Shown here piece after piece: positions 39,357 through 59,192 of a stretch of DNA of 64,000 bases. Source of the DNA: Bacillus sp. FJAT-29937 (GTDB taxonomy: Bacteria > Bacillota > Bacilli > Bacillales > Cytobacillaceae); the NCBI RefSeq assembly GCF_001509555.1, contig NZ_LMAS01000001.1, forward strand, positions 218,971 to 282,970. The letters run 5' to 3'. The notes beneath the pieces were generated by a model that was not told where the DNA came from, did no database searches, and worked only from the letters and a program-made list of their open reading frames with translations. The position numbers and the translations under genes are program-made. Position 1 is the stretch's first letter. The number at the start of each line of letters is the position of its first letter.

Positions 39357-40694
39357 TTAGTACAATACTGTTTCTAATTTTTTCACTAATCGCTGAATGG
39401 ATTTATTTGATTCTCTTAAAATAGTTGCTTTATTCATTGTAGTCATCTGTCTATTTTCCATTAGTACTTTTCCGTTCACAATCGTTGTTTCAACATCCGC
39501 TCTTGTAGCAGAATAAACAATTCTGGAAATCGGATCAATATCAGAGGATGGATATGTGTGGAAATCATTTAAGTTCAATATAGCTAGATCTGCTTTTTTC
39601 CCCGGTTCAATACTGCCAATTTCATTTTCCAATCCAACAGCTTTTGCTCCACCAATTGTAGCCATACGAAATACAGTTCTGGCGTTCATTGCTGATGGTC
39701 CATGAATAGGCTTCTGTATAATTGCAGCGAGTCTCATTTCATTGAACATATCCAGATTATTATTACAAGGAGCACCATCAGCTCCAAGGCTCACATGTGC
39801 ATGTTTATCGAGCAAAGACGGGATTTCAGCAACTCCTGAAGCGAGCTTAAGATTAGATCCCGGACAGTGGCTTACCTTAACGCCGCGCTCTTTAATAATT
39901 CTTTTCTCTTCCTCATCCAGCCATACACAATGAGCGAGGATTAAACGCTCATTCGCAAGACCTATGCTATCTAGGTAGACGACATTTCTCATCCCATGTT
40001 CTTTTTCTACCAATAAAATCTCTGTTGCATTTTCGGAAGCATGTGTATGAACTCTAACATTGTATTGCTTAGAAAGATCCCTTACTGTTGTTAATAATTC
40101 CTCCGTACAGGAAACAACAAAACGTGGGCAGAAGGCATACTGAATTCTGCCGCCATCATGATTGTGCCACTTTTCAAGCAGATCGACACTTTGCTTAATG
40201 GAATCTTGCGTATTTTCTCTTAAGAGAACTGGAACTTCGTCTCCCTTATCCATCATGACCTTCCCTGCTAAGGCTCGAATTCCACTTTCGGCAATCGCCT
40301 TAAAAGCATAATCTGTATGATGAACAGTTTCCATATCAACGACTGTCGTTGTTCCGCTTTGTAATAACTCCCCAATGCCAAGCATCGCAGAATAATAAAT
40401 GGATTCCTCATCATGAGATGCTTCCAATGGCCAAATTTTCTGCTTTAGCCAATCCATCAGTTCAAGGTCATCAGCCTGTCCTCTGAATAATGTTTGGCAT
40501 AAATGTATATGAGTTTGAATAAATCCTGGTATCACTGTGCGTCCTGTTGCATCAATTATTTTACTTGCGAAATGGGGAAGATTTTGTCCGATTTCAACAA
40601 TTTTGTCATCTACAATATAAATGTCTCCTTTAATAATTTCTTCCTTCTCATTCATCGTAACGATTTCCGCGTTCCTAATGAGAATGCTGCTCAT
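39357..40694 (-). CDS. amidohydrolase-family deaminase (guanine/8-oxoguanine/5'-deoxyadenosine deaminase type)
   Basis: ATG 40694 follows AGGAGGTG; the upstream frame overlaps the M20 gene. The 445-residue metal-dependent hydrolase has QTHIHLCQT (metal His pair), a VHTHASEN, LAHCVWL, SHCPGSNLKLASG and LGADGAPCNNNLDMFNEMR set typical of the TrzN/SsnA/MtaD group. In this operon it most probably deaminates a purine or aminoimidazole, such as guanine to xanthine or 4-aminoimidazole to 4-imidazolone. It is the last gene of the BMC operon and overlaps the M20 unit. The exact substrate is inference. Confidence 0.8.
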   Translation of the reverse strand: MSSILIRNAEIVTMNEKEEIIKGDIYIVDDKIVEIGQNLPHFASKIIDATGRTVIPGFIQTHIHLCQTLFRGQADDLELMDWLKQKIWPLEASHDEESIYYSAMLGIGELLQSGTTTVVDMETVHHTDYAFKAIAESGIRALAGKVMMDKGDEVPVLLRENTQDSIKQSVDLLEKWHNHDGGRIQYAFCPRFVVSCTEELLTTVRDLSKQYNVRVHTHASENATEILLVEKEHGMRNVVYLDSIGLANERLILAHCVWLDEEEKRIIKERGVKVSHCPGSNLKLASGVAEIPSLLDKHAHVSLGADGAPCNNNLDMFNEMRLAAIIQKPIHGPSAMNARTVFRMATIGGAKAVGLENEIGSIEPGKKADLAILNLNDFHTYPSSDIDPISRIVYSATRADVETTIVNGKVLMENRQMTTMNKATILRESNKSIQRLVKKLETVLY

Positions 40695-40695
40695 T

Positions 40696-41859
40696 TTACA
40701 CCTCCTGTATCTGACTAGTCTTGTCTGCTTTCTTTTCGTCAAAGTTAAGAATTAATGATTTATAAAAATCAATTGATCTTTTATAGGCAGCGACACTAAC
40801 CCATTCATTTGGCTGATGAGCAAGCTTCTCATCACCTGGTCCATAGATTAATGTAGGGATTTCGCTTCTTGGATTTAATACAGCTGCATCAGTATAATAA
40901 GAAACGCCAAAGCAATTAGAGTCCTCTTCATTTTTTATTTCTAACGCACAGTGAATTATATCTGATGAAACAGCGGTTAGAATAGGTGGACGGTCTAACA
41001 CTTTCGTTATCTTGAACTGATGTAGCTCCTCATTTTCAACAAGTTTATTAAGTTTTTGATTTAGCTCTTCGATTAAATGGTCATGTGATTGTGGAGGAAC
41101 TGTCCGAATATCCACCCGAATGGAACATCTATCAGGAATAACATTCGTTTGAACTCCCCCATTGATCATCGTAACCGCTAAGCTGCTGCTTCCTAGCGGC
41201 TCCTTCTCTAGTTTCCACTCCACTTTTAACGCATCTAGAATCTTAATAATTTGCACCATATGATCAACAGCATTGATTCCATGATCTGGCATTGACCCGT
41301 GTGCGGTTTTTCCATATGTGCTAATTTCTAGCCATAGTGCTCCCTTATGTCCAACGACAACCTTTTCATTCGTTGGTTCGCCGATTACTAGTGCATCAAT
41401 GACCCGATCGTCCTTTCCTTCCAAAAACGCTCGAGCTCCACAGCTATCGACTTCTTCACCAGCTGTTGCCAGAAATGTAATGGAAGCGGCTGGTGTCTTT
41501 TTTTCCAAAATCAAAGATTCTAGCGCTAAATACATGGCTGCCAAGCCGCTTTTCATATCTGAAGCCCCTCTGCCGTAAATCCTTTCTCCAACAATGTCAC
41601 CTGAAAAAGGGGCATACTGCCATTCAGACTCTCCAGGAGAAACTGTATCCATATGGCCGCACAAAAATAGATGCTTATCACCACTGCCTCCCAGCGTCAC
41701 CTCTAAATTACTGCGGTTTTCTTCAAGATAAGTCATCTTGAATGGGATACCTTTCTTCTTGCACCTTTCAATAAAAGCCTCAGTCACCTCATGCTCGTTA
41801 CCTGGTGGATTTGAGCTATTGATCCGCAAAAGCTTCTGAAGGAATTGAATATCATCCAT
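40696..41859 (-). CDS. M20-family metallohydrolase (ArgE/DapE/YgeY-like)
   Basis: ATG 41859 overlaps the preceding stop as TAATG. The 387-residue protein has the di-zinc residues LCGHMDTVSPGE, GRGASDMKSGLAAM, ATAGEEVDSCGA and VIGEPT, plus a terminal LAHQPNEWV. These hydrolases cleave N-acyl, N-formyl or N-carbamoyl amino acids. In this operon it may remove the formyl group from N-formylglycine or act on an N-carbamoyl or ureido intermediate. YgeY-like M20 proteins occur in another bacterial urate cluster. Confidence 0.82.
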   Translation of the reverse strand: MDDIQFLQKLLRINSSNPPGNEHEVTEAFIERCKKKGIPFKMTYLEENRSNLEVTLGGSGDKHLFLCGHMDTVSPGESEWQYAPFSGDIVGERIYGRGASDMKSGLAAMYLALESLILEKKTPAASITFLATAGEEVDSCGARAFLEGKDDRVIDALVIGEPTNEKVVVGHKGALWLEISTYGKTAHGSMPDHGINAVDHMVQIIKILDALKVEWKLEKEPLGSSSLAVTMINGGVQTNVIPDRCSIRVDIRTVPPQSHDHLIEELNQKLNKLVENEELHQFKITKVLDRPPILTAVSSDIIHCALEIKNEEDSNCFGVSYYTDAAVLNPRSEIPTLIYGPGDEKLAHQPNEWVSVAAYKRSIDFYKSLILNFDEKKADKTSQIQEV

Positions 41860-42482
41860 TATTCTGCCTCCACTATTTGCATTTTTAGAGATGTAACCTT
41901 CCATCCGTTTACAGGTGCCATATCTTGAGAACATGTCGTACAGGCAATGACCACGTCCTCCAAGGCTTTGAGTTTCACATAATCCCCCGGCTTTGAAAGG
42001 GGTTCTTCAATAACATAATCACCTTGATCATCCAGCACATTATTCATAAAAAGATTAATAGGATCTGGAACGATAGCTGGGTGTATATTAAATTTCTTAA
42101 GAGCTGTTTCTAAATTGTCATGGCAATTTGGATGATCATCGTGATCAAAATCCATTTTATACCGATAATAATCGCAAGCCGGAAAAAATATATCGTGAAC
42201 ACCCACAGTATCCTCAACAAGCTGCATTAGAGGTCTGCGTCTATTGCTGTATAGTAAATCGCCTTTTTTTAACCGAATACTGCTTAATGATGCTCTCATA
42301 TGAACGGGGGATACATATTCTTGTGGATCTGCATGATTGAAACAAACAAAATCCCCAACCTGCTTCCCTTCCATATCAATGATAATTAGCACTTCGCCTT
42401 TTCTTAAAAAAGCGCTCCTGCCTTCGTAGGGAGGAATGATGATTTCTTCACGAATTCTGTCCCTATTAAAGATTCCTTTCAC
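41859..42482 (-). CDS. DUF1989 (urea carboxylase-associated) protein, candidate imine deiminase
   Basis: This 207-residue protein has the DUF1989 signature with conserved Cys: FPACDYYRY, HPNCHDNL, ACTTCSQDMAPVNG. Homologues in guanidine-degrading operons form carboxyguanidine deiminase, which removes an imino nitrogen as ammonia. By analogy this protein could deiminate formiminoglycine, which carries an HN=CH-N group. It is co-translated with the M20 protein and lies between it and the cyclase-family gene. The function is inference; the family call is firm. Confidence 0.8.
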   Translation of the reverse strand: MKGIFNRDRIREEIIIPPYEGRSAFLRKGEVLIIIDMEGKQVGDFVCFNHADPQEYVSPVHMRASLSSIRLKKGDLLYSNRRRPLMQLVEDTVGVHDIFFPACDYYRYKMDFDHDDHPNCHDNLETALKKFNIHPAIVPDPINLFMNNVLDDQGDYVIEEPLSKPGDYVKLKALEDVVIACTTCSQDMAPVNGWKVTSLKMQIVEAE

Positions 42483-42497
42483 AAAATCACCCTCCGT

Positions 42498-43181
42498 CTA
42501 TTCAATAAAAACAGCAACTGCCCGGATCGGGGAGCCAGTTCCTTTCCGAATCCTGAGCGGAAGCCCAAAGTATAAAAATCTCATACCTGCTATTTGATCC
42601 AAATTACAAAGGTTTTCCGTATTTGTCATGCCATATTCCCTGCAAATTAAGTGGCCGGAATACTTTGGATCATCCGGATGGTCGATTGCTGGAGCATCGA
42701 TGCCAATGTTGACAACGCCTTTTTCCGCAAGCCACTTAGCTGCTTGGTAATCAAGCCCTGTATAGGTAGTTAACCATTCATCTGTGCCATATGACCTGTT
42801 ATAATGGCCGGTAAAGAGTAGAACGATATCTCCCTTCTCAATAAACTGACCAGATTTATTCAAGGCTCTTTCAAGATCTTGGCTCGTAATATAACGATTT
42901 GTCGAAACATGTGAAACATCCAGGCACACAGCTGGGCCATAAAAATATTCTAATGGCATTTCGTCAATATATTTCCCATTCGGATCGTACTCATATGTAG
43001 CATCACTATGGGTCGGTCCATGTTCATTAATGATTAAATTATTTGTTGCAAAAGGAAACCCTATCTTTTTTTCTGACTCTTCATGCGTAATATTCGTAAA
43101 AATCATCGTTGATGGATGAAGAGGGAAGACTGGCATCCCATGATAGATTTCCTGAGTTAAGTCTACTAATCTGACTCCCAT
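42498..43181 (-). CDS. cyclase-family hydrolase (kynurenine formamidase fold)
   Basis: ATG 43181 follows GGAGGG with 7-base spacing; ATG 43196 is part of that site. The 227-residue protein begins VDLTQEIYHGMPVFPLHP and has HGPTHSDATYEY, where the family motif is HxGTHxD, so the usual Gly is Pro but the His and Asp for metal remain. It also has HLICREYGMTNTENLCNLDQ. These enzymes hydrolyse cyclic or N-formyl amides. A 4-imidazolonase step fits the operon. That role is inference. Confidence 0.82.
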   Translation of the reverse strand: MGVRLVDLTQEIYHGMPVFPLHPSTMIFTNITHEESEKKIGFPFATNNLIINEHGPTHSDATYEYDPNGKYIDEMPLEYFYGPAVCLDVSHVSTNRYITSQDLERALNKSGQFIEKGDIVLLFTGHYNRSYGTDEWLTTYTGLDYQAAKWLAEKGVVNIGIDAPAIDHPDDPKYSGHLICREYGMTNTENLCNLDQIAGMRFLYFGLPLRIRKGTGSPIRAVAVFIE

Positions 43182-43197
43182 GATTTTTCCCTCCATT

Positions 43198-43242
43198 TCA
43201 AAAGCGTAAGCGCCTTTGGAACAATCAAAGGACGATTGTTCC
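43198..43242. repeat. intergenic hairpin element, repeat-like
   Basis: GGAACAATC (43218-43226) and GATTGTTCC (43234-43242) form a 9-bp perfect hairpin, preceded by AAAGCGTAAGCGCCTTT, itself a short palindrome. It lies in the 87-base gap between the cyclase and adenine-deaminase-like genes. The composition resembles dispersed intergenic elements of Bacillus, but only one copy is in the window. Confidence 0.4.
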
Positions 43243-43268
43243 TGAGCCGATCTTTTCCTGATGTATTT

Positions 43269-45077
43269 TTAAATAATCGTAGGAATAACCTCAAACTTGT
43301 CTACATCAATCAATCCCATATCAGTAATTTTCCATTTTGGACTTGTGACTAAAGACCAGAACGACAAATGCATGAACGGAACCTCCATACCGCATCCAAG
43401 CTCATCCTTTGCAAGTTTGGAAAGTTCATCAACCTTATCGCTCATTTCCTTACCGGTTAATTCATCCGTCATCAAACCACCGATACGGAGCGGAAGATCT
43501 CCAACCACTTTACTATCCTTGATCATTGCAATTCCGCCTCCCATTGCAATAACACGATTGACTGCGGTTACCATATCCTCATAATTCGTTCCAGTTACAA
43601 TAATATTATGAGTATCATGGGCCACACTCTCAGCGATGGCTCCACTCTTTAAATCAAAGCCATGCAGGAATGTTTTCCCTACTCTTCCTGTTCTTCCGTG
43701 ACGTTCCACAACAAGTAATGGCAATACATCCTGCTTTAGACATGGCTGGACAATTCCATCCTTTACATTCAGTGTATACTCGCCCTCGCCCGTTAAATTT
43801 TGGAAAGGAATGGCTTCAATCGCTCTAACCTTTGCACGAGTTCCTGATGCATTAATCGTCAGTTCATCTTTTGTAACTGCTTTTCGTTTAATCGATTTCT
43901 TAACACTTTCAGGATAAATATAAGGGACAATATCGATCGTTAGTTCGCCTTTTTCCGCAGCTTTTTTACCACCTAAATATACTTGATCTATCGTCATATT
44001 CATTAAATCGCTAATAACAGCAATGTCCGCCCTTTTACCAGGCGCGATCACTCCTACATCCTTAAATCCAAAGTGGGTAGCCGGGTTAATGGTTGCCATT
44101 TGGATAGCTTCGACTGGATCAATTCCTGCTGCGATTGTTCTCCGGACAATATCATTCATATGTCCATATTTCAGAAGATCTGCTGGAACCATATCATCTG
44201 ACACTAAAATAGCACGTCTTGAATCCAATCCATCCTCTGTGATCGCACGAATACACTCGGCCATATTTCTTTGGGAGGAGCCTTCTCTCATAAACACACT
44301 TACTCCATAGCGCAGCTTTTCAACCATTTCTTCCTTCGTCGTTGTTTCATGGCAAGAAACATGAGTGCCTCCGCTTATAATATGTGCAGCTAGTTCTTTT
44401 CCAAATAATCCAGGAGCATTACCCTCGACAGTTTTCCCAATACTGTTTGCATAGGAGACGGCTGCCACAAGATCATCTATTAATTCTGGGGCATGCTGAT
44501 ATACCGGCTGGATATTACTAAAGCTTTGAATTTCACCAATCCCTTGAACATATGGATCATTCAATAAGTCCTTCATATCCTTTGCTGAAACGTCATACCC
44601 TGAAGTTTCGAGACCAGGAGCATCGGGTACGGCACATGGAACAGTGAATAAGATACGGTTTGGAAGAGTTTTAGCTTCTTCAATCATCGCTTTCATTCCA
44701 TGCACACCGAGAACATTTCCAATCTCATGGGGGTCGCCAATTAATGTTGTCGTCCCTGTCGGTATGGACAGCTTAGAAAATTCCGTACATGTCAGCATGG
44801 CACTTTCGAAGTGCATATGAGAATCAATAAAACCCGGGCTAATAAATTTCCCTCGAACATCTTCTACCGTAGTTTTCGGACCAATGAGATCCTTTGCATC
44901 TCCGACCATCAAAATATATTGGCCTTTAATGGCAACATCTGCTTCATATATTTCACGGGTGATTACATTAATAAAATACCCGCCCCTAAGGACAATGTCC
45001 GCATATTGATGTGGATGCAATAATACATCAATTAATTTCCGATATTGAATAGCTTCTTTTATTTTAAGAGCGTCCAC
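43269..45077 (-). CDS. adenine-deaminase-family paralogue in the BMC operon
   Basis: This 602-residue amidohydrolase is related throughout to the Ade at 61799. It keeps SHMHFES and GEI but has GNAPG where the canonical Ade has GHAAG, and SCHETTT instead of TDHECVT, so a metal or substrate ligand His is Asn. It is also about 10 residues longer at the N-terminus. The changes argue for another substrate; 4-aminoimidazole deamination would be apt. The stop is followed within 4 bases by the EutN gene, so it is part of the shell operon. Substrate assignment is inference. Confidence 0.8.
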   Translation of the reverse strand: MDALKIKEAIQYRKLIDVLLHPHQYADIVLRGGYFINVITREIYEADVAIKGQYILMVGDAKDLIGPKTTVEDVRGKFISPGFIDSHMHFESAMLTCTEFSKLSIPTGTTTLIGDPHEIGNVLGVHGMKAMIEEAKTLPNRILFTVPCAVPDAPGLETSGYDVSAKDMKDLLNDPYVQGIGEIQSFSNIQPVYQHAPELIDDLVAAVSYANSIGKTVEGNAPGLFGKELAAHIISGGTHVSCHETTTKEEMVEKLRYGVSVFMREGSSQRNMAECIRAITEDGLDSRRAILVSDDMVPADLLKYGHMNDIVRRTIAAGIDPVEAIQMATINPATHFGFKDVGVIAPGKRADIAVISDLMNMTIDQVYLGGKKAAEKGELTIDIVPYIYPESVKKSIKRKAVTKDELTINASGTRAKVRAIEAIPFQNLTGEGEYTLNVKDGIVQPCLKQDVLPLLVVERHGRTGRVGKTFLHGFDLKSGAIAESVAHDTHNIIVTGTNYEDMVTAVNRVIAMGGGIAMIKDSKVVGDLPLRIGGLMTDELTGKEMSDKVDELSKLAKDELGCGMEVPFMHLSFWSLVTSPKWKITDMGLIDVDKFEVIPTII

Positions 45078-45080
45078 TGT

Positions 45081-45359
45081 TTAACCCCCTGTCATCATTC
45101 CTTCCAAACTATCAATAATTCCAATAATTGCAGCATCAATGGGTGCATCTTTATTCCTGATCGCTCGCGAAGCCATGCTTCCAGTCACATAGATGACTCT
45201 TTCACCTATTCCAGCTCCGACAGTATCAACAGTAATAATGGGATTTGGCAGTACCTGTCCATCTAATCCAATCGGCTGTGTAATTAATAGCTTCGTCCCA
45301 ACTAGATTTTCATCTTTTCTCGTAGCAGTTACCCGGCCAACCACTATTCCCATGTGCAT
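45081..45359 (-). CDS. EutN/CcmL-family BMC vertex (pentamer) protein
   Basis: ATG 45359 follows AAGGGG; the upstream frame is the overlap with the preceding gene. The 92-residue protein MHMGIVVGRVTATRKDENLV has the BMC-P pattern: GRVTAT, KLLITQPIGLDG, VDTVGAGIGERVIYVTGSMAS, and a C-terminal DAAIIGIID. Five copies cap the vertices of a microcompartment shell. It is the only BMC-P gene in the operon. Confidence 0.93.
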   Translation of the reverse strand: MHMGIVVGRVTATRKDENLVGTKLLITQPIGLDGQVLPNPIITVDTVGAGIGERVIYVTGSMASRAIRNKDAPIDAAIIGIIDSLEGMMTGG

Positions 45360-45372
45360 AAAGATCGTCCCC

Positions 45373-46107
45373 TTATTCTGTAATGATTGCAATATTCAAC
45401 TCTCTTGCCATATCCTTGGCAAGGGGAGTAATGATAGTCTGACTTGGCATTCTCAATGTATGTTGATTTTGCTGTTGCAAATATCGTATTGTTTCTGCAG
45501 AAACAATTGATTTTTTTTGTGAATGATAAAGAAAAGCATCAAAATGATCATCTTCATTGATCAGGTCAATTCCCAACCCTTTTAGCTGAATCATTTGTTC
45601 CTTTAGTTTTCTTTTAAAAGCTTGAGATCCTTTATCCATACCCTTAACTTTCCATAGCTGATGATCAGCGTCCATGCCTATTTTTAATGCCACTACCTTC
45701 TTACCTGTCATTAAACTATGAAGGATCAGACGGACAAAAGGCCTCTGTTCATTGAAGGAAAGAATATCTGAAACAATTGAAAATGAAAGGACTGGAAGAA
45801 ATACGATGTCAATCATTATGTTCTCAGATAATTGCTGATGAGAAATCCAATCATCATTGCCAATTATTCTCACAATCTCATTTCTTTCGTCATGAAAGTA
45901 AGGCAAATTCTCCACTGAGATTCGCAGCATGCATTGTTTATTAGTTAAATCCTTCAAATATAAAAGTCCTGGTTCCATTCCAATCAAATGAGAGGTAATT
46001 AGAGCCAGGACATATGGTCTTTTCTGCAGGCTCTTACTGTAGCTGTTTCGCTTCGACAGCTCTTGCAGAGTGTGTTTCATCATGACACTCTGCTTATTTG
46101 AGCTCAT
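45373..46107 (-). CDS. BMC-associated flavoprotein-like protein
   Basis: This 244-residue protein has a middle segment (DIVFLPVLSFSIVSDILS, then HSLMTGKKVVALKIG) that follows the PF02441 flavoprotein pattern seen in BMC flavoproteins. It ends SQTIITPLAKDMARELNIAI, the tail found in many BMC-associated proteins. FMN binding is not certain from the sequence. It lies between two BMC-H genes and EutN, and starts only 3 bases past the previous stop. It may serve redox or scaffold functions. Confidence 0.65.
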   Translation of the reverse strand: MSSNKQSVMMKHTLQELSKRNSYSKSLQKRPYVLALITSHLIGMEPGLLYLKDLTNKQCMLRISVENLPYFHDERNEIVRIIGNDDWISHQQLSENIMIDIVFLPVLSFSIVSDILSFNEQRPFVRLILHSLMTGKKVVALKIGMDADHQLWKVKGMDKGSQAFKRKLKEQMIQLKGLGIDLINEDDHFDAFLYHSQKKSIVSAETIRYLQQQNQHTLRMPSQTIITPLAKDMARELNIAIITE

Positions 46108-46109
46108 AT

Positions 46110-46394
46110 TTATTCACCAATCGTTTTGGATAATAAGGCTCTTTCCACTTCGCTGTGAGGTCTAGGAATCACATGGACAGATACTAATTCTCCAACGCGG
46201 CTTGCTGCTTCAGCTCCAGCATCAGTAGCTGCTTTAACAGCGCCTACATCTCCTCTTACCATAACAGTGACAAGTCCAAATCCAACCTTTTCATAGCCGC
46301 AAATTTCCACATTTGCTGCCTTAACCATTGCATCTGCAGCCTCTACTGCCCCAACCAAACCCTTTGTTTCTACTAATCCTAATGCTTCACCCAT
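46110..46394 (-). CDS. BMC-H shell protein (PduA/EutM type) 1
   Basis: This 94-residue single BMC domain begins [20 protein letters not shown] and continues with [31 protein letters not shown] residues, then [10 protein letters not shown] at the C-terminal. The length and IPRPH end are characteristic of PduA/EutM/CcmK hexamers. The pore-lining segment follows the KVG. It forms the hexagonal shell faces. ATG follows GGAGG. Confidence 0.95.
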
Positions 46395-46417
46395 GATTTA
46401 TTTCCTCCTCATATTGA

Positions 46418-46873
46418 TTAATTTGAGTTGTTATTATCTTCCTCTGATTGACTATTTTCCGTTCTATCATTTTCCACTTTTTTAGTGGTTCCTTTTTTCG
46501 TTGAGCCTTTATTATTTATTCCCTTTGCTTCGGCTTCCTTTTTGTTTCCCTCTGAGTCTTCCTTTTTACTTCGACTATTCTCTTCAAGCTTAAAATGCGG
46601 TAATAGTTTACTTGATACTTCATTGTGAGCCCTTGGTATTACATGAAAGGAAATGACTTTTCCAATACGATCAGCCGCTTCCTTACCAGCATCCACAGCA
46701 GATTTAACCGCGGCGACATCCCCGCTGAAATGAACCGTAACACCAAGATATCCATTTACTCCAATAACTTTTTCAATGCCTACAATTTCTACATCCGCTG
46801 CTTTAACTGCAGCGTCTGCAGCAGAAACAGCTGTTAAATAGCCCACTGTTTCAATTAATCCTAGTGCTTGCAA
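46418..46873 (-). CDS. BMC-H shell protein with charged disordered tail 2
   Basis: TTG 46873 follows GGAGGCTATG. The first 90 residues are a BMC domain (QALGLIETVGYLTAVSAADA; VISFHVIPRAHNEV), longer by two residues in the GVNGYLGVT loop, which lies near the pore. Residues 95-151 are Lys/Glu/Asn-rich low complexity, absent from ordinary hexamers. The tail may bind cargo or face the cytosol. Extended BMC-H proteins such as EutK/PduK carry other tails. Confidence 0.9.
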   Translation of the reverse strand: MQALGLIETVGYLTAVSAADAAVKAADVEIVGIEKVIGVNGYLGVTVHFSGDVAAVKSAVDAGKEAADRIGKVISFHVIPRAHNEVSSKLLPHFKLEENSRSKKEDSEGNKKEAEAKGINNKGSTKKGTTKKVENDRTENSQSEEDNNNSN

Positions 46874-46897
46874 TTACATAGCCTCCAGTCATAAATG

Positions 46898-47896
46898 TTA
46901 TTTAAGCTTCTCTGCTTCCTTTAATAATTCGTCAGAAACATTTGAAATCGTTAAGAATGAACCATAAAGAAGTAAAGAACCTTTCTCTACGGTATAGTTG
47001 AACTTAATATTTGGTGATTTTTTCAATAAACGATCTAATAGAAGAATGGACGAATATTGATTAATTCCGTCAAGAACAGCCACTCCATCTACATGGACAT
47101 TTAAATGAAGCTGTTTTGTTAACCAAGGACTAGGGGATTGAACTTTATAAAGCTGTAATGACTTATTTGAATGATGAGAAAGTTTTTGAAATAATGTTTT
47201 TACAGCTGCGGTAAGTTTAGCAGCATCCTCATCATATAACTCAAGGACAAAGCCGCTGCTTTTTTCTTTATCCCATATCAAACTATATTTCATCGTCGAA
47301 TACTCTCGTAAAATATCATTCACTAAAAATAATTGGCCGATTGAAGATTGTTCACTCAAGATGACTCCAATCGAATGTGACTTTAGCGGCCGCTGAAATG
47401 ATTCAAGCAATTTTTCAGAAAGACCAGAATATATCCAAGCTTTAATTCCATTTCTCGTTTGGCCGATAAACTTACTTTCTTCATTAATACGATTATTTAC
47501 ATACGAGCTATTTTGGGGCTTATTCAATGGCTGGTTCCCTTGTACAAGAGAGATCGTCTGCAGTTTTGAAAGGGTACCCATAATGGAATCTTTACTTGCG
47601 GTTTTTGGATGAGCTATTCTTTGTTCATTTTTCGATGAATAAATGTTTTTATTTTTATTTGTATTATTTTTTGTATTTTCAGGCAGTCCGGCTAGTCTTT
47701 TTTGGATATTTTTCTGCTGATAATTTGGCCGATTTATTCCAGCTATCGTTTGATTTGGCGTTTCCTTTCTGCTGTCATTAACAGTGGATTTCGAATAAAC
47801 GAACCTGGAATCTCCCCCGTTAAACAAAGGATTCTCTCTCGGCTTTTTGGCCGGCTGTAATACTTCCTGGACAATACTTTTCATGAATTCTGACAA
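46898..47896 (-). CDS. BMC-associated protein with encapsulation peptide, linker and possible divergent tandem BMC domain
   Basis: TTG 47896 follows AGGAGGTGAAT. Residues 1-17 (SEFMKSIVQEVLQPAKK) form an amphipathic helix of the type that targets cargo to shells. Residues 20-150 are polar and low complexity. Residues 165-332 contain two weakly similar blocks, SIGVILSEQSSIGQLFLVND and GVAVLDGINQYSSILLLDRL, each followed by beta-rich sequence like a BMC fold. No enzyme motif is seen. It is encoded between two BMC-H genes. It is likely a scaffold or an unusual shell component. Confidence 0.6.
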   Translation of the reverse strand: MSEFMKSIVQEVLQPAKKPRENPLFNGGDSRFVYSKSTVNDSRKETPNQTIAGINRPNYQQKNIQKRLAGLPENTKNNTNKNKNIYSSKNEQRIAHPKTASKDSIMGTLSKLQTISLVQGNQPLNKPQNSSYVNNRINEESKFIGQTRNGIKAWIYSGLSEKLLESFQRPLKSHSIGVILSEQSSIGQLFLVNDILREYSTMKYSLIWDKEKSSGFVLELYDEDAAKLTAAVKTLFQKLSHHSNKSLQLYKVQSPSPWLTKQLHLNVHVDGVAVLDGINQYSSILLLDRLLKKSPNIKFNYTVEKGSLLLYGSFLTISNVSDELLKEAEKLK

Positions 47897-47909
47897 GCAT
47901 ATTCACCTC

Positions 47910-48173
47910 CTAGAGAATCTTAGCAAGCTCTGCATGCGGCCGAGGAATGACATTAAAGGATACTAACTCTCCTCCGGTCTTAGAATGAGCCATTTTCCCT
48001 ACCTCGACAGCAGCAGTTACAGCTGCAACATCTCCTTCTACAATTACAGTCACTAACCCAGAACCGACCCGTTTTAAGTCTACTAAACTAACATTGGCTG
48101 CTTTAGCCATGGAATCAAGTGCTTCTATCGCAGCTGTTAATCCTCTTGTTTCAATCATCCCAATTGCCTTCAT
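47910..48173 (-). CDS. BMC-H shell protein (PduA/EutM type) 3
   Basis: ATG 48173 follows GGGGGACGGGAA; the frame extends upstream but without a site. The 87-residue BMC domain (MKAIGMIETRGLTAAIEALD; KRVGSGLVTVIVEGDVAAV; VSFNVIPRPHAELAKIL) is the closest in this set to PduA/EutM hexamers. It is the first shell gene of the operon, after UbiD. Confidence 0.95.
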   Translation of the reverse strand: MKAIGMIETRGLTAAIEALDSMAKAANVSLVDLKRVGSGLVTVIVEGDVAAVTAAVEVGKMAHSKTGGELVSFNVIPRPHAELAKIL

Positions 48174-48272
48174 TTCCCGTCCCCCTTCACAATACCAATA
48201 TGAGGAAATAGTCAAATAAACCTTAAAATTCCAAGTGGAAACTCAACTGTTTCATGAAGTTTTCTAGTTTTC

Positions 48273-49610
48273 CTATAAATAATCTTCAAGATTGACTTCA
48301 ATTGGAATGGATGTTCTCCTAAACATTTCTTCTTCTCCTAATGGATAGGTGGCGTCTATTCCCATTTTGTCGGAAACACCTCTTAGGTTATGGGAGGATT
48401 CGAGTGGAGAACCTTTAGCCCCGGGAACAATAAATACGTCATTTGAGGCCTGAACCCTAGTTGCAACCGCCCATTCAACATCCTCTGAATCGAAAATATC
48501 AACATCATCATTTACTACAACGACATGTTTTAAATCTTTATCACTAGCAAATGCAGCAAGTGCTGCTTGCTTTCCATCCCCTTCAGATTTCTTCTCAATT
48601 TGAATGACAGCATGGTAACGAGCAACACCTCCCATCGGAATATGTACTCCTTTAATATTCGGAATGACCTGTCTAACAGTACTTAATAAGGTCGCTTCCC
48701 GAACGAGAGCCATTGGCAGTCTTTCTTCATAGCTTGAAGGGAAGATGGTCTGGTTAATAGCTTGATTCCGATAGGTTACAGCTGATATTTCCACGATTGG
48801 CTGAGGGGATCTAAACCCATAATAGCCGGCTAATTCTCCAAATGGCCCTTCCATTTCACGTTCATTCGGTAACATTCGGCCTTCAAAAACAATTTCCGCT
48901 TCTGCCAGAACATCTAAATCTACCGTCTTACAACGAACAACATCTAAGGATTGTCCAAGTAAAGCTCCTGCAACATTTAATTTGTCTGTATGATATAGAT
49001 GTGTGCTAATCTGTGAACTCAATACGACAGCCGGCACTACCCCAAACATAACCGCCACTTCCATTGGCTCTCCCAATTTTTCAAAATATGAATACTGATC
49101 CAATAACTCTGGTGAAGTAATTAATATATTCGTTCGATTTCCGCCTAAATACTGCATCCTCCTTATAGATGTATATCTTTTCTTGCCAGTAATATCCTTC
49201 ACAACTAGTATCCCTGATACATAATAGGCACCTGAATCCCCTGCGTGAAAAGTCGGGATTGGAAACAGGTCTGCTAAATCAAAGTCGCCTGTAACTAGAT
49301 TTTCCTGTACAGGTCCAGTTTCTTTTAAAGTTGTAGGAATTGGATTAACAATTGAGTCAATAATTTTAGGGATTAATTCCGAAGTTTGAATACCCATGCT
49401 ATCAGCAAGTAGATCACGATCTCCGCCTAATCCTGCTGTCATAGCTGATTGATAACCTTTGACTTTTTCAAAGAGGAAAGGTTGTCTGCCATTTTTTGTG
49501 TTGACAATCGCACCTAATTCATAGCGGGGATCTACTTCTCGCTTAATTCGATATAGAAGGCCTTTATTCTCCCAGTCATCTAATAATGCTCTCATTGTTA
49601 CAGGTATCAT
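48273..49610 (-). CDS. UbiD-family prenylated-FMN decarboxylase
   Basis: ATG 49610 overlaps the UbiX stop as ATGA and has GGGGAG in front. The 445-residue protein carries the UbiD blocks RRMQYLGGNR (cofactor contact), PNEREMEGPFGELAGYYG (catalytic Glu) and IKGVHIPMGG. These enzymes decarboxylate unsaturated or heteroaromatic acids using prFMN from UbiX. In this operon a likely substrate is 4-amino-5-imidazolecarboxylate, giving 4-aminoimidazole. Substrate is inference; family call is firm. Confidence 0.92.
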   Translation of the reverse strand: MIPVTMRALLDDWENKGLLYRIKREVDPRYELGAIVNTKNGRQPFLFEKVKGYQSAMTAGLGGDRDLLADSMGIQTSELIPKIIDSIVNPIPTTLKETGPVQENLVTGDFDLADLFPIPTFHAGDSGAYYVSGILVVKDITGKKRYTSIRRMQYLGGNRTNILITSPELLDQYSYFEKLGEPMEVAVMFGVVPAVVLSSQISTHLYHTDKLNVAGALLGQSLDVVRCKTVDLDVLAEAEIVFEGRMLPNEREMEGPFGELAGYYGFRSPQPIVEISAVTYRNQAINQTIFPSSYEERLPMALVREATLLSTVRQVIPNIKGVHIPMGGVARYHAVIQIEKKSEGDGKQAALAAFASDKDLKHVVVVNDDVDIFDSEDVEWAVATRVQASNDVFIVPGAKGSPLESSHNLRGVSDKMGIDATYPLGEEEMFRRTSIPIEVNLEDYL

Positions 49611-50245
49611 GATTTTTCTCCCCACCTTTCCAGCAAACGATGATCAATATAAAGCATGTCTAAAATTCGCGCTACCATAAAGTTGGCCAGCTCCCATATT
49701 TCTGTTGGCTTATGGTAGAATCCTGGAGAGGCTGGCATAATACATGCACCTGTCTCAGCTAGCAGTGTCATATTACGCAAGTGAATTAGATTAAAAGGGG
49801 CTTCCCTTGGAACGATAATAAAATTTCGTTTTTCTTTTAAAACCACGCTTGCTGCTCTGCTTAGCAATGTATCCCCTACACCATTTGCAATGGCCCCAAG
49901 TGTATTCATGGAACATGGAACGATAACCATCCCGTCAGTCAAATAAGATCCGCTTGCTATGGACGCAAACAAATTTTTATTACTATGGACAGTGGCGTAC
50001 TCTTTAAGCTCCTCCATCGAGACTCCGCACTCAAATTGCATTACTTTCTCTCCCATATCCGTAACAATTAAGTGCGTCTCAATCCCTAATTGATGAAGGG
50101 CGCGGATCAAAGTGTATCCATACAATGATCCGCTAGCCCCAGTAATACCCACTAGAATTCTTCTTTTTCGTTCTCCGAAAGGGATAATTTTAGACAACCT
50201 TTTCGTCTTGGGAGAATTTAATTTTTGCTGCTTCTTTATATTCAT
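49607..50245 (-). CDS. UbiX-family flavin prenyltransferase
   Basis: The core begins RILVGITGASGSLYGYTLIR and contains VVPCSMNTLGAIANGVGD, PREAPFN and MTLLAETGACIMPASPGFY, all UbiX hallmarks. It makes prFMN for UbiD. From ATG 50245 there would be a 29-residue leader (MNIKKQQKLNSPKTKRLSKI...) in front of the usual start, 56 bases inside the isochorismatase gene. No good ribosome site is visible, so TTG 50197 is possible. A real leader could be an encapsulation signal. Confidence 0.9.
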   Translation of the reverse strand: MNIKKQQKLNSPKTKRLSKIIPFGERKRRILVGITGASGSLYGYTLIRALHQLGIETHLIVTDMGEKVMQFECGVSMEELKEYATVHSNKNLFASIASGSYLTDGMVIVPCSMNTLGAIANGVGDTLLSRAASVVLKEKRNFIIVPREAPFNLIHLRNMTLLAETGACIMPASPGFYHKPTEIWELANFMVARILDMLYIDHRLLERWGEKS

Positions 50246-50780
50246 CCGTTGTCATGATATCTCCGAAAATATCAATATCTCTTAATCCGGAGACATGCAT
50301 ATCGTCATCTTGTGAGGCTGTTCCATCAGAAAGACAGATGATATTATATCCATGATAAAGGGCATCAGATGCCGTGCTGCGAACACAAACATTAGTCCAC
50401 ACACCTGTTAATACGACTGTATCTATTTCCTCTTCCCTTAAGAACAGATCAAAATCGGTATAGCTAAACGCACTATGTCTTCTCTTCTGAACGACATAGT
50501 CACCCTTATCTTCTTCCGGCTGCAGTTCAGGTATGAACTCTGATCCCCATGTGCCTTTTACCGCATGAACAGGTCTTACACGGAAATCCCTGTCATTTTT
50601 TCGGTGAGCCTCCTGGACATGAACCACTTGAATATTGTGATCATGTGCAAAATCAATAAGCTCTCTAATTTTAGGTACAATTTTTTCCCCATTTTCACAG
50701 CGAAGTGCCGCATTTTCACCAATAAAATCATTAAGCATATCGATTACTACAACACAATGTTTTTTTCCTTTAAGTTCCAC
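50190..50780 (-). CDS. isochorismatase-family cysteine amidase
   Basis: This 196-residue protein has the triad: Asp in VVVIDMLNDF, Lys in YVVQKRRHSAF, and Cys in GVWTNVCVRSTA. It starts at GTG 50780 after AGGATGAAAG. Relatives such as RutB and N-carbamoylsarcosine amidase release a carbamoyl group as CO2 and NH3. In this operon it may convert 4-ureido-5-imidazolecarboxylate to the amino compound. The substrate is inference. Its end overlaps UbiX by 56 bases. Confidence 0.85.
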   Translation of the reverse strand: MELKGKKHCVVVIDMLNDFIGENAALRCENGEKIVPKIRELIDFAHDHNIQVVHVQEAHRKNDRDFRVRPVHAVKGTWGSEFIPELQPEEDKGDYVVQKRRHSAFSYTDFDLFLREEEIDTVVLTGVWTNVCVRSTASDALYHGYNIICLSDGTASQDDDMHVSGLRDIDIFGDIMTTDEYKEAAKIKFSQDEKVV

Positions 50781-50866
50781 TTATCTTTCATCCTTTCAAA
50801 AGGTTGATTTCATCTTTCTATTTGTTAGATGAAACTTGCTAAATCCAATTTTATTTACCTTTGCAA

Positions 50867-52336
50867 TCAATTTTGAGTTACAGCTTCAGCTTCCTTTGAT
50901 TCTACTTTTACTGCTTCATACTTTTCATATTTTAAAGTTCTTTCTAAACGTTGAATGCTTTGACGAGGTACATATTCGCCATAGCCAGCTTCACCAACAA
51001 TTCCACCATTATCTTCATCGTACACAAGATTTCCACGGATAATCGTCTGTACTGGTTTTCCTTTTAGTTCCAATCCGTGTAATGGATTATACTTTGCCAT
51101 TGATTCAGTTTTTTGTTCATCAATAACATATTCCTTCTCAAGATCAATGATTGTGAAGTCAGCATCACTGCCAATTTCCATTGATCCTTTTTTCGGATAT
51201 ATGCCATAATGAATAGCAGCATTCCGGCTCGTTACCTCAACAAAACGTGATAAGGATAGACGGCCTTTATTTAATCCTTCACTTACTAGGATAGGAACCA
51301 TTGTTTCTACGCCTGGAATACCAGGGAATGTATTCCATATATTCGCCCCTGGATAATCTTTTTCTGTTGCAATTTCATATGGAGCATGGTCGGTTCCAAC
51401 GAAATCGATTGTTCCATCGGCAAGTGCCTGCCAGTGGGATTCATTGTCTTCTTTACCGCGCAGCGGAGGAGCAATTTTTGCATATGAACCGCGTTCTGAC
51501 ATGGAATCCTGTGCGTTAAGTACGAGGTAATGAGGGCAAGTTTCTGAAGTTACTTTAATCCCTCGTTTCTTTGCGTTCCTAACTAGCTCCACTCCCTCTT
51601 TTGTACTCATGTGCACAACATGGACACGAGCATCTGTTGCTTCGGCAAAGCTTAGTATTAATTCGATTGCAACCTTTTCAGCTAGACTTGATCTTGCCTC
51701 CGCCCATGCAGGTCCATCAAAGCGCCCCTCTTTTTCTAGCTTCTTAGAGTTAAAAGTACAAATATCATAGTTTTCAGCATGCACACCTATTGGCAAACCT
51801 GTTTTTGCCACATGTTTAAAGATTTCAAGCATTTCAGCATCTGAAACCTTTGGGAAAGTTGGTACGGAAGGTGTCATATACACTTTAAAAGCGACAACCC
51901 CTTCATCAATTTGCGGGTAAATATTATCGATCCAGCCTTCACGGGCATCTTCTCCCGTCATTCCTCCCCAGAAGCAATAATCAATATATGCTTGGTCACG
52001 AATAGGTCCTATTTTCTTGTGAAAGCTGTCCCCATCCCGAACAGAAGGCTTGCTGCAGCATGGCATATCAATGATCGTTGTTAACCCGCCAGCTGCGGCT
52101 GACCGGCTTCCAGTTGCAAATGTTTCTCTATGAGTAAAGCCTGGATCCATAAAATGTGTATGCGGGTCAATACAGCCAGGAACTACTAGCTTTCCTTCCA
52201 CATCAATAACTTTTGTAGCATTTAAGAAGCTAATATCATTGGAATATCCTATAATTTTTCCATCATTTACAAGAATATTCGTTAGAACTTGACGATCCCC
52301 TTGTGGAATGTTTGCATTTTTCAGAATTAGATCCAT
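50867..52336 (-). CDS. cyclic amidohydrolase, allantoinase/dihydropyrimidinase family
   Basis: This 489-residue protein has the metal set DPHTHFMDPG, carbamylated Lys in VVAFKVYM, HAEN, VHVVHMST and FVGTDHAPY. After the usual end near GEYVPR at residue 454 there is a 35-residue extension, SIQRLERTLKYEKYEAVKVE and beyond, absent in ordinary allantoinases. It may hydrolyse xanthine to a ureido-imidazole or allantoin to allantoate; context (UbiD, no uricase) favours the first. The extension might direct it into the shell. Confidence 0.85.
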   Translation of the reverse strand: MDLILKNANIPQGDRQVLTNILVNDGKIIGYSNDISFLNATKVIDVEGKLVVPGCIDPHTHFMDPGFTHRETFATGSRSAAAGGLTTIIDMPCCSKPSVRDGDSFHKKIGPIRDQAYIDYCFWGGMTGEDAREGWIDNIYPQIDEGVVAFKVYMTPSVPTFPKVSDAEMLEIFKHVAKTGLPIGVHAENYDICTFNSKKLEKEGRFDGPAWAEARSSLAEKVAIELILSFAEATDARVHVVHMSTKEGVELVRNAKKRGIKVTSETCPHYLVLNAQDSMSERGSYAKIAPPLRGKEDNESHWQALADGTIDFVGTDHAPYEIATEKDYPGANIWNTFPGIPGVETMVPILVSEGLNKGRLSLSRFVEVTSRNAAIHYGIYPKKGSMEIGSDADFTIIDLEKEYVIDEQKTESMAKYNPLHGLELKGKPVQTIIRGNLVYDEDNGGIVGEAGYGEYVPRQSIQRLERTLKYEKYEAVKVESKEAEAVTQN

Positions 52337-52381
52337 AGTTTCTACCCCTTATACTGTTAAATTTCTGCTTTATGCAGATTA

Positions 52382-53710
52382 TTAAATGGTATCCATTGAG
52401 TGCTCAGTTTTTAACTGATTTATTTGCTCATTTTTAGATATATTTAAATCCTTATAATTAAAGACCACATTTAGTAAAATGGCGGTCAAGCTTCCAATGA
52501 CTATTCCATTTTCAACGAGTAAACGAACACTTATTGGAAGACTGCCAAACATAGCTGGAACAACTGCGGCTCCTAAACCGATTCCAACGGAGCAGGCAAT
52601 AATTAAGAGGTTTTCATTTTTGGAAAAATCTACAGCTGAAAGCATTCTAATCCCTGAAGAAATTACCATCCCAAACATTGGGATCATGGCACCACCAAGT
52701 ACAGCCATAGGGATAACGGTAGTTAGAGCTGCAATCTTAGGCAAAAGTCCTAAAATAATTAGTATGACCCCTGCTGAAATGACAACATTTCTAGTTTTCA
52801 CTTTAGTCAGAGCTACAAGGCCAACATTTTGAGAGAATGATGTATAAGGAAAAGCATTAAATATTCCTCCGATGACAACTGCAAGTCCTTCTGCTCTTAA
52901 TCCCTTTTTAATATCCTTGGATTCTAGTTTTCGTTCACATACATCACCTAATGCTAAAAATACGCCAGTAGACTCTATCATACTTACAATGGCGACTAAG
53001 GTCATTGTAAGTATAGCCGAGAAATTAAATGTAGGCAGACCGAAATAAAAAGGCTGAACAATATGGAACCAGGAAGCATTGGCAACTTCGGCAAAACTAA
53101 CCATTCCCATAAAATATGCGACTACCGTACCAGCAATTAATGAAAGAAGAACAGAAATTGCTTTCATATATCCTTTGAAGAACCGATTCATCAAGATGAT
53201 TAGAATTAGTGTAAATATGGCTAAAAATAAATTTTGGGAGCTGCCAAAATCCGGTGAGCCCAGTCCGCCAGCAGCATTATTCATAGCAACTGGAATTAAG
53301 GAAACCCCAATAATTGCAACAACTGAACCAGTGACAACTGGAGGGAAAAAACGCATGATCTTACTCATAAACTGCGATAATATCATAACGAAAATTCCAG
53401 ATGCAATGATGGCACCATAAATGGAGGTTATTCCTTGTAATTGTCCAATGGCAATCATCGGCCCAACTGCTGTAAATGTACAGCCTAAAATGACAGGTAA
53501 TTTAATACCGAAATGCTTCCCGCCTATGACCTGTAATAAAGTAGCTATCCCACATGTAAATAGATCAATCGAGATTAAATAAGCAAGTTGTTGAGCATTT
53601 AATCCAATTGCAGGTCCAACAATTAAAGGTACAATGACAGCCCCTGCATACATTGCCAAAACATGCTGAAATCCTAAGGTTCCAATTTTGAAAGGATTAA
53701 GTTTTTCCAA
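52382..53710 (-). CDS. NCS2-family xanthine/uracil permease
   Basis: TTG 53710 follows GGGGGA with 6-base spacing; the frame extends to GTG 53767 but with no near site. The 442-residue protein has about 14 helices, QHVLAMYAGAVIVPLIVG near the start and the NAT signature FSQNVGLVALTK, indicating a nucleobase:cation symporter-2. Xanthine or urate is the likely substrate given the operon. It is the second gene of the minus-strand unit. Confidence 0.9.
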   Translation of the reverse strand: MEKLNPFKIGTLGFQHVLAMYAGAVIVPLIVGPAIGLNAQQLAYLISIDLFTCGIATLLQVIGGKHFGIKLPVILGCTFTAVGPMIAIGQLQGITSIYGAIIASGIFVMILSQFMSKIMRFFPPVVTGSVVAIIGVSLIPVAMNNAAGGLGSPDFGSSQNLFLAIFTLILIILMNRFFKGYMKAISVLLSLIAGTVVAYFMGMVSFAEVANASWFHIVQPFYFGLPTFNFSAILTMTLVAIVSMIESTGVFLALGDVCERKLESKDIKKGLRAEGLAVVIGGIFNAFPYTSFSQNVGLVALTKVKTRNVVISAGVILIILGLLPKIAALTTVIPMAVLGGAMIPMFGMVISSGIRMLSAVDFSKNENLLIIACSVGIGLGAAVVPAMFGSLPISVRLLVENGIVIGSLTAILLNVVFNYKDLNISKNEQINQLKTEHSMDTI

Positions 53711-53809
53711 GTTCAGTCCCCCATATTTACAGAATATGTCTTCAGTATTACTTGGGATGCATTTCACTATTTTTCTTACAAATCACCTCCAAAAATAAAA
53801 ATTTGTATA

Positions 53810-54421: not shown

Positions 54422-54486
54422 ACAAATCAACTTATACTTTTTTGAAAATTTAAACATTTTTGGTCAAAAATATCTAATATTATTAT

Positions 54487-54552
54487 TTTCGTATAACCTC
54501 AAAAATCGGTTTGAGGGTTTCTACTAGGGACCGTAAATTCCTAACTACGAAA
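54487..54552 (+). ncRNA. guanine-class purine riboswitch aptamer
   Basis: P1 is TTTCGTA (54487-54493) with TACGAAA (54546-54552). P2 is CCTCAAA with TTTGAGG. The J2/3 segment GTTTCTACTA is the conserved purine-aptamer core, and P3 is AGGGA with TTCCT around CCGTAAA. The base before the 3' P1 arm is C (54545), the position that pairs with guanine-type ligands (it is U in adenine switches). It should sense guanine, hypoxanthine or xanthine. Confidence 0.9.
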
Positions 54553-54592
54553 GGGTTTCTAACGTGTAAAAAAATCACGGCAGCCTTTTTGT
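54551..54592 (+). terminator. expression-platform terminator of the riboswitch
   Basis: AAGG...CTaaCGTG and CACGgcAG...CCTT form a stem with a bulge, followed by TTTTT. The 5' arm abuts P1, so ligand-bound P1 and an antiterminator would compete. Regulation by termination is inferred; direction (off or on) is not settled. Confidence 0.5.
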
Positions 54593-54860
54593 ATGGGAAT
54601 TTTTTTGTTCCTTAGCTAGTAAAAAAGCACCGTATTTTTAATCAAAATAACAATGAACTAAAACTTACTGCTTATTTTCCTGCACAATATTTTATCTTTC
54701 ATACACCCCGTGATTGCCACACTCTTCCAATTGTAAAATTTCCTATTACATAGTCCATTTACCTAATAGTCCAATTAAAAATAAATGTAGAAAACACTTT
54801 TTATCAACGCATCCTATTACGATTAATAACCAGAGAAATCAATTATATGGAGGGAATTTA
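54593..54860 (+). other. leader region between riboswitch and xdh operon
   Basis: Within this 268-base AT-rich stretch I see no convincing gene. The frame that runs from 54714 into the first xdh gene lacks a ribosome site until 54861. T-rich segments at 54599-54607 and 54631-54640 could belong to the expression platform. Confidence 0.5.
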
Positions 54861-55352
54861 ATGAGAACAATAAATTTTACTGTTAATGGCTCACCTTGTG
54901 CTGTATCATGCCCGCCGGCAAAAACTTTGCTGGACGTATTAAGGGAGGATCTAAAATTGACAGCCAGCAAGGAATGCTGTGGCAAAGGAGAATGCGGATC
55001 ATGCTCCGTTTTGTTAAATGGTGAAGTCGTCTGCTCCTGTTTGATTCTCGCGGGTCAAGTTGAGAATCAAGAAATAGTAACTTGTGAAGGGGTCGGCTTA
55101 ACTTCAAATATGGATGTTATCCAAGAATCCTTTGTAGTAGAGGGTGCCACTCAATGCGGGTATTGCACGCCAGGCATAATAGTTTCTGCAAGGGCCTTTC
55201 TAAATAGAATCGATTATGTGCCAACGACTAATCAAATTAAAACCGCATTAGGGGGAAATCTTTGCCGGTGCACCGGCTATACGAAAATTATTAAAGCCAT
55301 CCAAACCGCTGCCGAAAAGGAAATGAAATCAATAGGAAAAGCAACGACGTAA
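54861..55352 (+). CDS. pucE: xanthine dehydrogenase [2Fe-2S] subunit
   Basis: ATG 54861 follows TATGGAGGG. The 163-residue protein has an N-terminal plant-ferredoxin cluster site (CCGKGECGSCSV ... CSC) and a C-terminal helical cluster site (QCGYCTPGI and LCRCTGYTK), the standard small subunit of molybdenum hydroxylases. It passes electrons from the Mo centre. It is the first gene of the plus-strand operon. Names follow the B. subtilis puc genes. Confidence 0.93.
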   Translation: MRTINFTVNGSPCAVSCPPAKTLLDVLREDLKLTASKECCGKGECGSCSVLLNGEVVCSCLILAGQVENQEIVTCEGVGLTSNMDVIQESFVVEGATQCGYCTPGIIVSARAFLNRIDYVPTTNQIKTALGGNLCRCTGYTKIIKAIQTAAEKEMKSIGKATT

Positions 55353-59187: not shown

Positions 59188-59192
59188 TCATT

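Follow-up and report, generated by a model that had tools for sequence, protein, structure and literature searches.

The Xau compartment, a proposed type of bacterial microcompartment (BMC) without aldehyde chemistry, was introduced in 2019 in a study whose first author is said to be Ravcheev, and the abstract of Tong et al. 2023 reportedly describes a xanthinase pathway in which four hydrolases, each from another family, act together with a decarboxylase dependent on prenylated flavin mononucleotide (prFMN). The 2019 prediction was made from the Alkaliphilus genes Amet_4568-4587 and their relatives and concerned O2-independent xanthine breakdown; where the paper turns to Bacillus, it mentions two clusters and reports the transferase as missing from that of B. 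fordii DSM 16014 (PMC6620236), and the last step in this genus was left open. The gene cluster of the xanthinase pathway was identified in 2023, with a kcat quoted for xanthinase (Tong et al., cited in PMC12507026), and for C. acidurici it had been stated in 2012 that no glycine formiminotransferase gene was found (PMC3519856). Here we describe the corresponding locus of Bacillus sp. FJAT-29937, which lies in a 64,000-nucleotide stretch of contig NZ_LMAS01000001.1 (positions 218,971 to 282,970; "the window" hereafter, the source of all coordinates for which no other contig or locus is named) and consists of 16 genes in a single minus-strand run from 53767 to 39357. Its last step appears to be of another kind: we consider it probable that this operon is a Bacilli version of Xau in which a DUF1989 protein and an M20 amidohydrolase stand in for the formimidoyltransferase (XauG) and split formiminoglycine with water only.

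Calls of open reading frames (ORFs) and Pfam matches gave the gene order PbuX-type permease, xanthinase, isochorismatase-fold hydrolase, UbiX, UbiD, BMC-H, a 332-aa protein, two further BMC-H, a 244-aa protein, EutN, adeL, cyclase, DUF1989, M20 and deaminase-type amidohydrolase; topoisomerase IV genes and a gene for a CoA-binding protein lie beyond the operon end. Dozens of named genomes show this order too, so that the layout is not a product of chance. The succession of xanthinase-type amidohydrolase, isochorismatase-fold hydrolase and UbiD is the same as in clostridial shell loci, and genes for both hexameric (BMC-H) and pentameric (BMC-P) shell proteins are part of the operon. All genes that a first-pass annotation of the window had placed in this run, three BMC-H and one EutN included, were confirmed, as was its statement that the usual BMC signature enzymes are absent: for the 16 operon proteins, Pfam gave no match at E <= 0.001 to any aldehyde dehydrogenase, phosphotransacylase, diol dehydratase or glycyl-radical enzyme. 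The operon thus lacks the aldehyde dehydrogenase and phosphotransacylase that define a classical aldehyde metabolosome. XauG is likewise missing from the genome, which we did not count as excluding Xau because the authors of 2019 include clusters without it.

In order to compare the last step across genomes, the xanthinase was used as an anchor, giving 80 named loci with 60-94% identity (the best 80 of 365 relatives), of which the nearest to our locus are those of Bacillus sp. S/N-304-OC-R1 and Cytobacillus. The isochorismatase-fold hydrolase accompanies xanthinase in 75 of the 80. We kept the 62 loci bearing shell genes; the other 18 have no BMC-H plus EutN match in the stretch, some being cut by contig ends. 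In the non-Bacilli shell loci, a formiminotransferase gene stands directly before xanthinase in 14 of 17. In the Bacilli loci, DUF1989 follows the cyclase in 44 of 45 and is itself followed by M20 in 34 of 45; of the 11 loci without M20 in the stretch, one (L056) is truncated by the flank, and its M20 lies immediately beyond. Whole-genome profile searches covered 50 of the 62 shell-bearing genomes, which come without completeness figures. Of these, 18 have the N-terminal domain of formiminotransferase-cyclodeaminase (FTCD_N) and 32 have DUF1989; none has both and none lacks both. By group, 32 of 33 Bacilli have DUF1989 only, and 17 of 17 others (for the most part named Clostridia, besides one Calditrichales and two records with no title beyond Bacillota) have FTCD only. 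The C-terminal domain, FTCD_C, is strong in all 17 and in the one exceptional Bacilli genome. The 12 loci omitted from these counts (L049, L050, L051, L053, L054, L055, L058, L059, L060, L062, L082 and L097) are close, Cytobacillus-like ones, all with DUF1989 and without FTCD in the stretch. FTCD_N is absent across the whole genome of our strain, and the same holds for Siminovitchia (Bacillus) fordii DSM 16014, in which DUF1989 is present.

Two further samples were searched. In one, ten xanthinase genomes, our own among them, remained from 12 after leaving out two (G341 and G045) with ~41% identity and another arrangement; seven of the ten have FTCD_N and two, our own genome and G219, have DUF1989. 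Among 398 Bacilli genomes, taken as one draw and overlapping with the loci (at least three of the 11 xanthinase genomes, G596, G787 and G805, are shared), xanthinase was detected at 1e-150 in 11. DUF1989 is present in 11 of 11, at a distance of 8.8-12.6 kb, compared to 36 of the 387 without a xanthinase match (Fisher p 2e-11, kinship ignored). FTCD_N occurs in 14 of the 398 and in none of the 11. On a tree, the 45 Xau DUF1989s form a group of their own with support of 90/95, which is below the mark of 95/80 set by the tool. The 20 other DUF1989s on this tree include six that are one member each of tandem pairs and were taken as CgdAB-like. Residues H96, C103, C120 and C184, which we take to have a metal role, are conserved in both sets, in keeping with membership of PF09347. 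One locus of the set, L058, belongs to a record titled Pseudomonas sp. ISL-84; its DUF1989 is nested among those of Cytobacillus, and the record is likely mislabelled because the Xau locus is Cytobacillus-like.

The exceptional genome is that of Neobacillus notoginsengisoli (L067, G407), whose shell operon is of the Bacilli type. No DUF1989 was found in it genome-wide and no M20 match at 1e-40; instead, the gene row reads cyclase, deaminase, FTCD, FTCD_C, with a 329-aa formiminotransferase (PF07837 and PF02971) next to a 216-aa FTCD_C protein. This FTCD shares 52% identity with the one near the shell operon of G197 and ~41% with five more that lie close to xanthinase, against 30-35% for two unlinked ones. 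On a tree that excludes L090, the adeL protein of N. notoginsengisoli pairs (support 100) with its sister from N. mesonae, a species carrying DUF1989-M20, and the two proteins share 94% identity. Since the adeLs are sisters and the end modules differ, two-gene modules have been exchanged in one operon within one genus. This natural swap makes the function of DUF1989 in the operon directly testable.

The proposed route begins with the NCS2 xanthine-type permease (52382..53767, minus strand as are all operon genes; PF00860, E 3.4e-121; NCBIfam pbuX 557.6 bits, cut-off 414). Xanthine would be opened to 4-ureido-5-imidazolecarboxylate by the predicted xanthinase, a hydantoinase-like cyclic amidohydrolase of the dihydroorotase domain family (50867..52336; PF01979) that scores near allantoinase in NCBIfam (356.4 bits, cut-off 357.9). 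The isochorismatase-fold amidohydrolase (50190..50780; PF00857, E 2.5e-50) would then cut the ureido group to give 4-amino-5-imidazolecarboxylate, which the predicted UbiD-family decarboxylase (48273..49625; PF01977/PF20695/PF20696; TIGR00148, 308 bits vs 245) would convert to 4-aminoimidazole, using prFMN from the putative flavin prenyltransferase UbiX (49607..50245; PF02441; NCBIfam UbiX 223 bits, cut-off 188). Deamination of 4-aminoimidazole is tentatively ascribed to the adenine-deaminase-like adeL (43269..45077; PF13382 and PF01979), which barely passes the NCBIfam adenine deaminase model with 475.4 bits (cut-off 472.5), and ring opening to formiminoglycine to the cyclase-family hydrolase (42498..43196; PF04199, E 9.7e-36), a predicted imidazolonase found in the Bacilli loci and in most clostridial shell loci. 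The DUF1989 protein (41859..42482; PF09347, E 6.1e-54), by distribution and tree a candidate formiminoglycine deiminase, would release ammonia and N-formylglycine, and the M20 protein (40696..41859, ORF from 41934, start ~41859 inferred) may deformylate the latter to glycine and formate. It has the architecture of the ArgE/DapE family (PF01546, E 4.8e-34, and PF07687; TIGR01910, 252 bits vs 218). The deaminase-type amidohydrolase at the operon end (39357..40694, ORF from 40742, start inferred; NCBIfam PRK07228, 731.6 bits, cut-off 522) is likely a purine-feeding deaminase; most clostridial shell loci contain a relative of it at 54-61%.

These assignments of enzymes to steps draw on protein families and the literature; the enzyme set given for the pathway of Tong et al. 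2023 fits xanthinase, the isochorismatase-fold hydrolase, adeL, the cyclase and UbiD of our operon. The first-pass annotation had called the full assignment unproven, which no longer holds at least for the step of xanthinase. Its reading of the operon as classical clostridial xanthine fermentation holds as far as a shell operon for O2-independent breakdown is concerned, in agreement with the published prediction, and fails at the folate-dependent last step, for which FTCD_N is missing. The FTCD pair carries out formimino transfer and ammonia release, and the simplest substitute is therefore a deimination by DUF1989 followed by a deformylation by M20. Formiminoglycine is an amidine-like carboxylate, and a comparable C=N group is the site at which carboxyguanidine deiminase, a DUF1989 enzyme, releases ammonia (PMC11271267, PMC8390497). 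The replacement would forgo the folate-linked energy gain, a loss that respiring bacilli may be able to afford. We lean, if only slightly, towards the wider proposition that spore-forming Bacilli uncoupled purine fermentation from folate by replacing the energy-conserving FTCD with a DUF1989 deiminase and an M20 deformylase, the modules having been swapped as whole pairs in a single Neobacillus operon, and that their PduB-type shell protein is too diverged for standard BMC models. If true, this would add a new reaction to DUF1989, a family with few known ones, and mean that purine fermentation in bacilli has lost its folate-linked step. A last-step role linking DUF1989 with formiminoglycine or xanthinase was not found in the open-licence PMC literature; it may have been described earlier elsewhere.

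Several observations weigh against this interpretation. The mutual exclusion of FTCD and DUF1989 mostly tracks the split between Bacilli and other bacteria, and two state changes suffice to explain it on the adeL tree. In the set of ten genomes, both FTCD_N and DUF1989 are missing from G164, whose xanthinase has no shell genes nearby. FTCD_C is marginally detected in two (G423 and G430) of the other 32 Bacilli, and our own genome (4.55 Mb, listed completeness 100%, listed contamination 9.28%) keeps a diverged, unlinked FTCD_C (cyclodeaminase-like) homologue (C6:45432-45929, 92 bits). The exchanged modules occupy different slots, DUF1989-M20 between cyclase and deaminase and the FTCD pair of N. 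notoginsengisoli after the deaminase, and the FTCD of the latter is also 42% identical to that of a xanthinase genome without shell genes. The DUF1989 tree has long branches among some non-Xau members, and the Xau proteins are 30-46% identical to other DUF1989s, which does not fix their substrate. M20 is not universal, lying within the stretch in only 34 of the 45 Bacilli loci: in five Fictibacillus genomes, its relatives reach only ~30% identity in four and are absent at 1e-40 in one, and four Paenibacillus carry M20 on another contig with 48-51% identity, while two FTCD genomes (G439 and G444) hold M20 relatives at 39-40%. The Fictibacillus data imply that M20 is replaceable or accessory and weigh most heavily against a route with two enzymes.

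They also lend some weight to the possibility that DUF1989 ends the pathway alone, by hydrolysis of formiminoglycine that yields glycine and formamide (or products handled by housekeeping enzymes), with M20 as an accessory: DUF1989 follows the shell operon strictly, and M20, given the Fictibacillus genomes without an orthologue and the Paenibacillus ones with a distant copy, does not. We regard this as unlikely, since M20 and DUF1989 are missing together from the Neobacillus swap genome, M20 stands directly behind DUF1989 in most Bacilli loci and the characterised DUF1989 deiminase releases ammonia. It is also quite improbable, in our view, that DUF1989 and M20 act on a side product or on a guanidino or ureido compound and that formiminoglycine is removed by an unlinked HutG-like hydrolase. 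HutG commonly degrades formiminoglutamate in Bacilli, and DUF1989 must have other jobs too because 36 of the 387 Bacilli genomes in which xanthinase had no match carry it; an unlinked hydrolase, however, leaves unexplained why the sole Bacilli operon without DUF1989 and M20 contains a formiminotransferase and a cyclodeaminase, and why FTCD and DUF1989 exclude each other one to one. The ordinary clostridial pathway, with a folate-dependent transferase encoded elsewhere in the genome, would agree with the 2019 paper, which took the missing gene as supporting a step outside the compartment (PMC6620236). A transferase of the known type elsewhere is excluded by the genome-wide absence of FTCD_N from our strain and from all but one of the 33 Bacilli Xau genomes searched, S. 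fordii DSM 16014 being among those without it, so that this explanation is contradicted unless an unrelated transferase exists, and we consider it very improbable. Hydrolysis of formiminoglycine by DUF1989 and M20 remains the reading that we prefer.

The shell would be built from three BMC-H proteins, a pentamer of the EutN type and a PduB-type BMC-T, the last of which was overlooked by the first-pass annotation, whose count of shell genes was one too few. The BMC-H genes are located at 47910..48173 (c; ORF from 48215, start ~48173 inferred; PF00936, E 1.5e-27), 46418..46873 (b; E 7.8e-25, with a long charged C-terminal tail) and 46110..46394 (a; E 6.8e-30, 91-100% identical among the Bacilli loci showing it), and the EutN/CcmL vertex protein (BMC-P) is encoded at 45081..45359 (ORF from 45392, start inferred; PF03319, E 4.2e-29). 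The 332-aa protein (46898..47896) has no Pfam match, the BMC model PF00936 included, and its clostridial counterparts are recognised. The predicted structure and a profile match to PduB/EtuB assign to it two tandem permuted BMC domains (~139-332, 46901-47482) behind an N-terminal tail (~1-138, 47483-47896), with 10-13% identity to the top solved BMC-T relatives. This evidence rules out an enzyme or a non-shell scaffold and outweighs the missing Pfam match, which is a matter of detection; by its modelled fold, the protein is a cryptic, diverged PduB-type BMC-T and its gene adds a fourth kind to the shell genes. Counting shell proteins with the Pfam BMC model therefore probably misses one in Bacilli Xau loci.

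In Pdu, the N-terminal tail of PduB ties the enzyme core to the shell (PMC12108088), and the tail of the cryptic BMC-T may do the same here. It offers a candidate cargo attachment where the enzymes lack an obvious targeting extension; no clear added targeting helix was seen on the operon enzymes by eye in a subset of loci. Against such a role, the AlphaFold2 (AF2) pLDDT is mostly <50 across the tail, the amphipathicity of its first helix is only moderate (moment 0.34; 95th percentile of the background 0.32), and the first helix of the 244-aa protein is not amphipathic (hydrophobic moment 0.15). Among the hydrophobic moments of seven N-terminal stretches, that of the Bacilli BMC-T alone exceeds the 95th percentile, the others being 0.15-0.30, and we rejected such moments as too weak to establish targeting helices. 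At the BMC-T position, L091-L094, L096, L098, L099, L102, L103, L105, L109, L111, L123, L124 and L126 carry an ORF of 71-147 aa instead, often starting with M-x-NPLxxxIMxN and possibly a tail or adaptor without shell domain.

The first-pass annotation had also passed over the 244-aa protein (45373..46107), which has no Pfam match at E <= 0.001. AF2 and Foldseek (best E 2.9e-5, TM ~0.44 by query) point to a UbiX/flavoprotein-like fold, although the N-terminal helix is poorly modelled, and we predict a PduM-like structural protein. A clostridial counterpart matches PF02441 (Flavoprotein) and PF15953 (PDU_like), with the PduM C-terminus and TIGR02536 below cut-off. Some clostridial-type Xau loci contain a EutJ-like gene (352 bits, L026 15184-15993), for which no match was found in the Bacilli loci. 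Our genome has a second BMC locus ~100 kb away (C1:357000-376900, L024), of the ethanolamine utilisation (Eut) type, with EutA, EutB, EutC, EutH, an aldehyde dehydrogenase, PTAC and BMC proteins. Among the xanthinase loci, pairs of xanthinase and isochorismatase genes without a UbiD or shell match in the fetched flank were observed in Paenibacillus and Thermosyntropha (L101, L104, L107, L108, L112, L115-L118, L122), and other Paenibacillus (L100, L110, L119, L120) have shell genes beside the pair on the opposite strand.

Upstream of the operon, a small MpsC-domain protein is encoded on the minus strand (53968-54318) between the permease and a purine riboswitch on the plus strand (54469..54567; RF00167, 78.8 bits, cut-off 37), whose specificity base, at the position we assume to be decisive, looks like the guanine-type C. 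No further Rfam match at gathering score was obtained within 38000-64000. The riboswitch precedes a divergent plus-strand operon that, like the riboswitch itself, is missing from the first-pass annotation. It starts with genes for xanthine-dehydrogenase-type subunits and MocA-/XdhC-type maturation proteins (54714..60319; PF01799, PF12804, PF00941, PF02738, PF20256, PF13478, PF02625), whose best NCBIfam names are of the PucE/PucC/PucD/XdhB type, all below cut-off, followed by a second NCS2-family permease (60404..61768; PF00860, E 3.3e-46) and an adenine deaminase (61799..63550; TIGR01178, 681 bits vs 472). The dehydrogenase-type and deaminase genes are predicted feeders; with them, adenine and hypoxanthine would enter as xanthine.

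Compared to the described Xau compartments, the locus has the same shell genes, two ring hydrolases, amidohydrolases and aromatic-acid decarboxylase, with a xanthine dehydrogenase often nearby, and differs in the lack of XauG, in the presence of DUF1989 and M20 and in a BMC-T that would fail the Pfam shell criterion as given in the 2019 paper (PMC6620236). The main text of the 2021 BMC catalogue contains none of the terms "Xau", "xanthine" and "purine" and so offers no placement for the locus. With the pathway of Tong et al. 2023, the operon shares xanthinase and subsequent hydrolytic and decarboxylative steps to glycine (via PMC12507026). The cryptic shell protein has the predicted tandem circularly permuted fold and the N-terminal extension of BMC-T of the PduB/EtuB/EutL type, but differs by its low identity, a tail of ~138 residues and the missing PF00936 match. 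With the carboxyguanidine deiminase CgdAB and the N-domain of trimethylamine N-oxide (TMAO) demethylase, the Xau DUF1989 shares the domain and H96, C103, C120 and C184; unlike CgdAB, it is a single gene, separate from the tandem-pair DUF1989s on the tree and linked to purine breakdown. The reductive urate pathway of E. coli and C. difficile, as outlined in PMC12507026, likewise employs SsnA-, HyuA- and M20-type (YgeY) hydrolases on purine fragments, whereas none of the 16 operon genes is of the YgfK/UacX, YgeW or YgeX type, and UbiD/UbiX and a shell are present instead.

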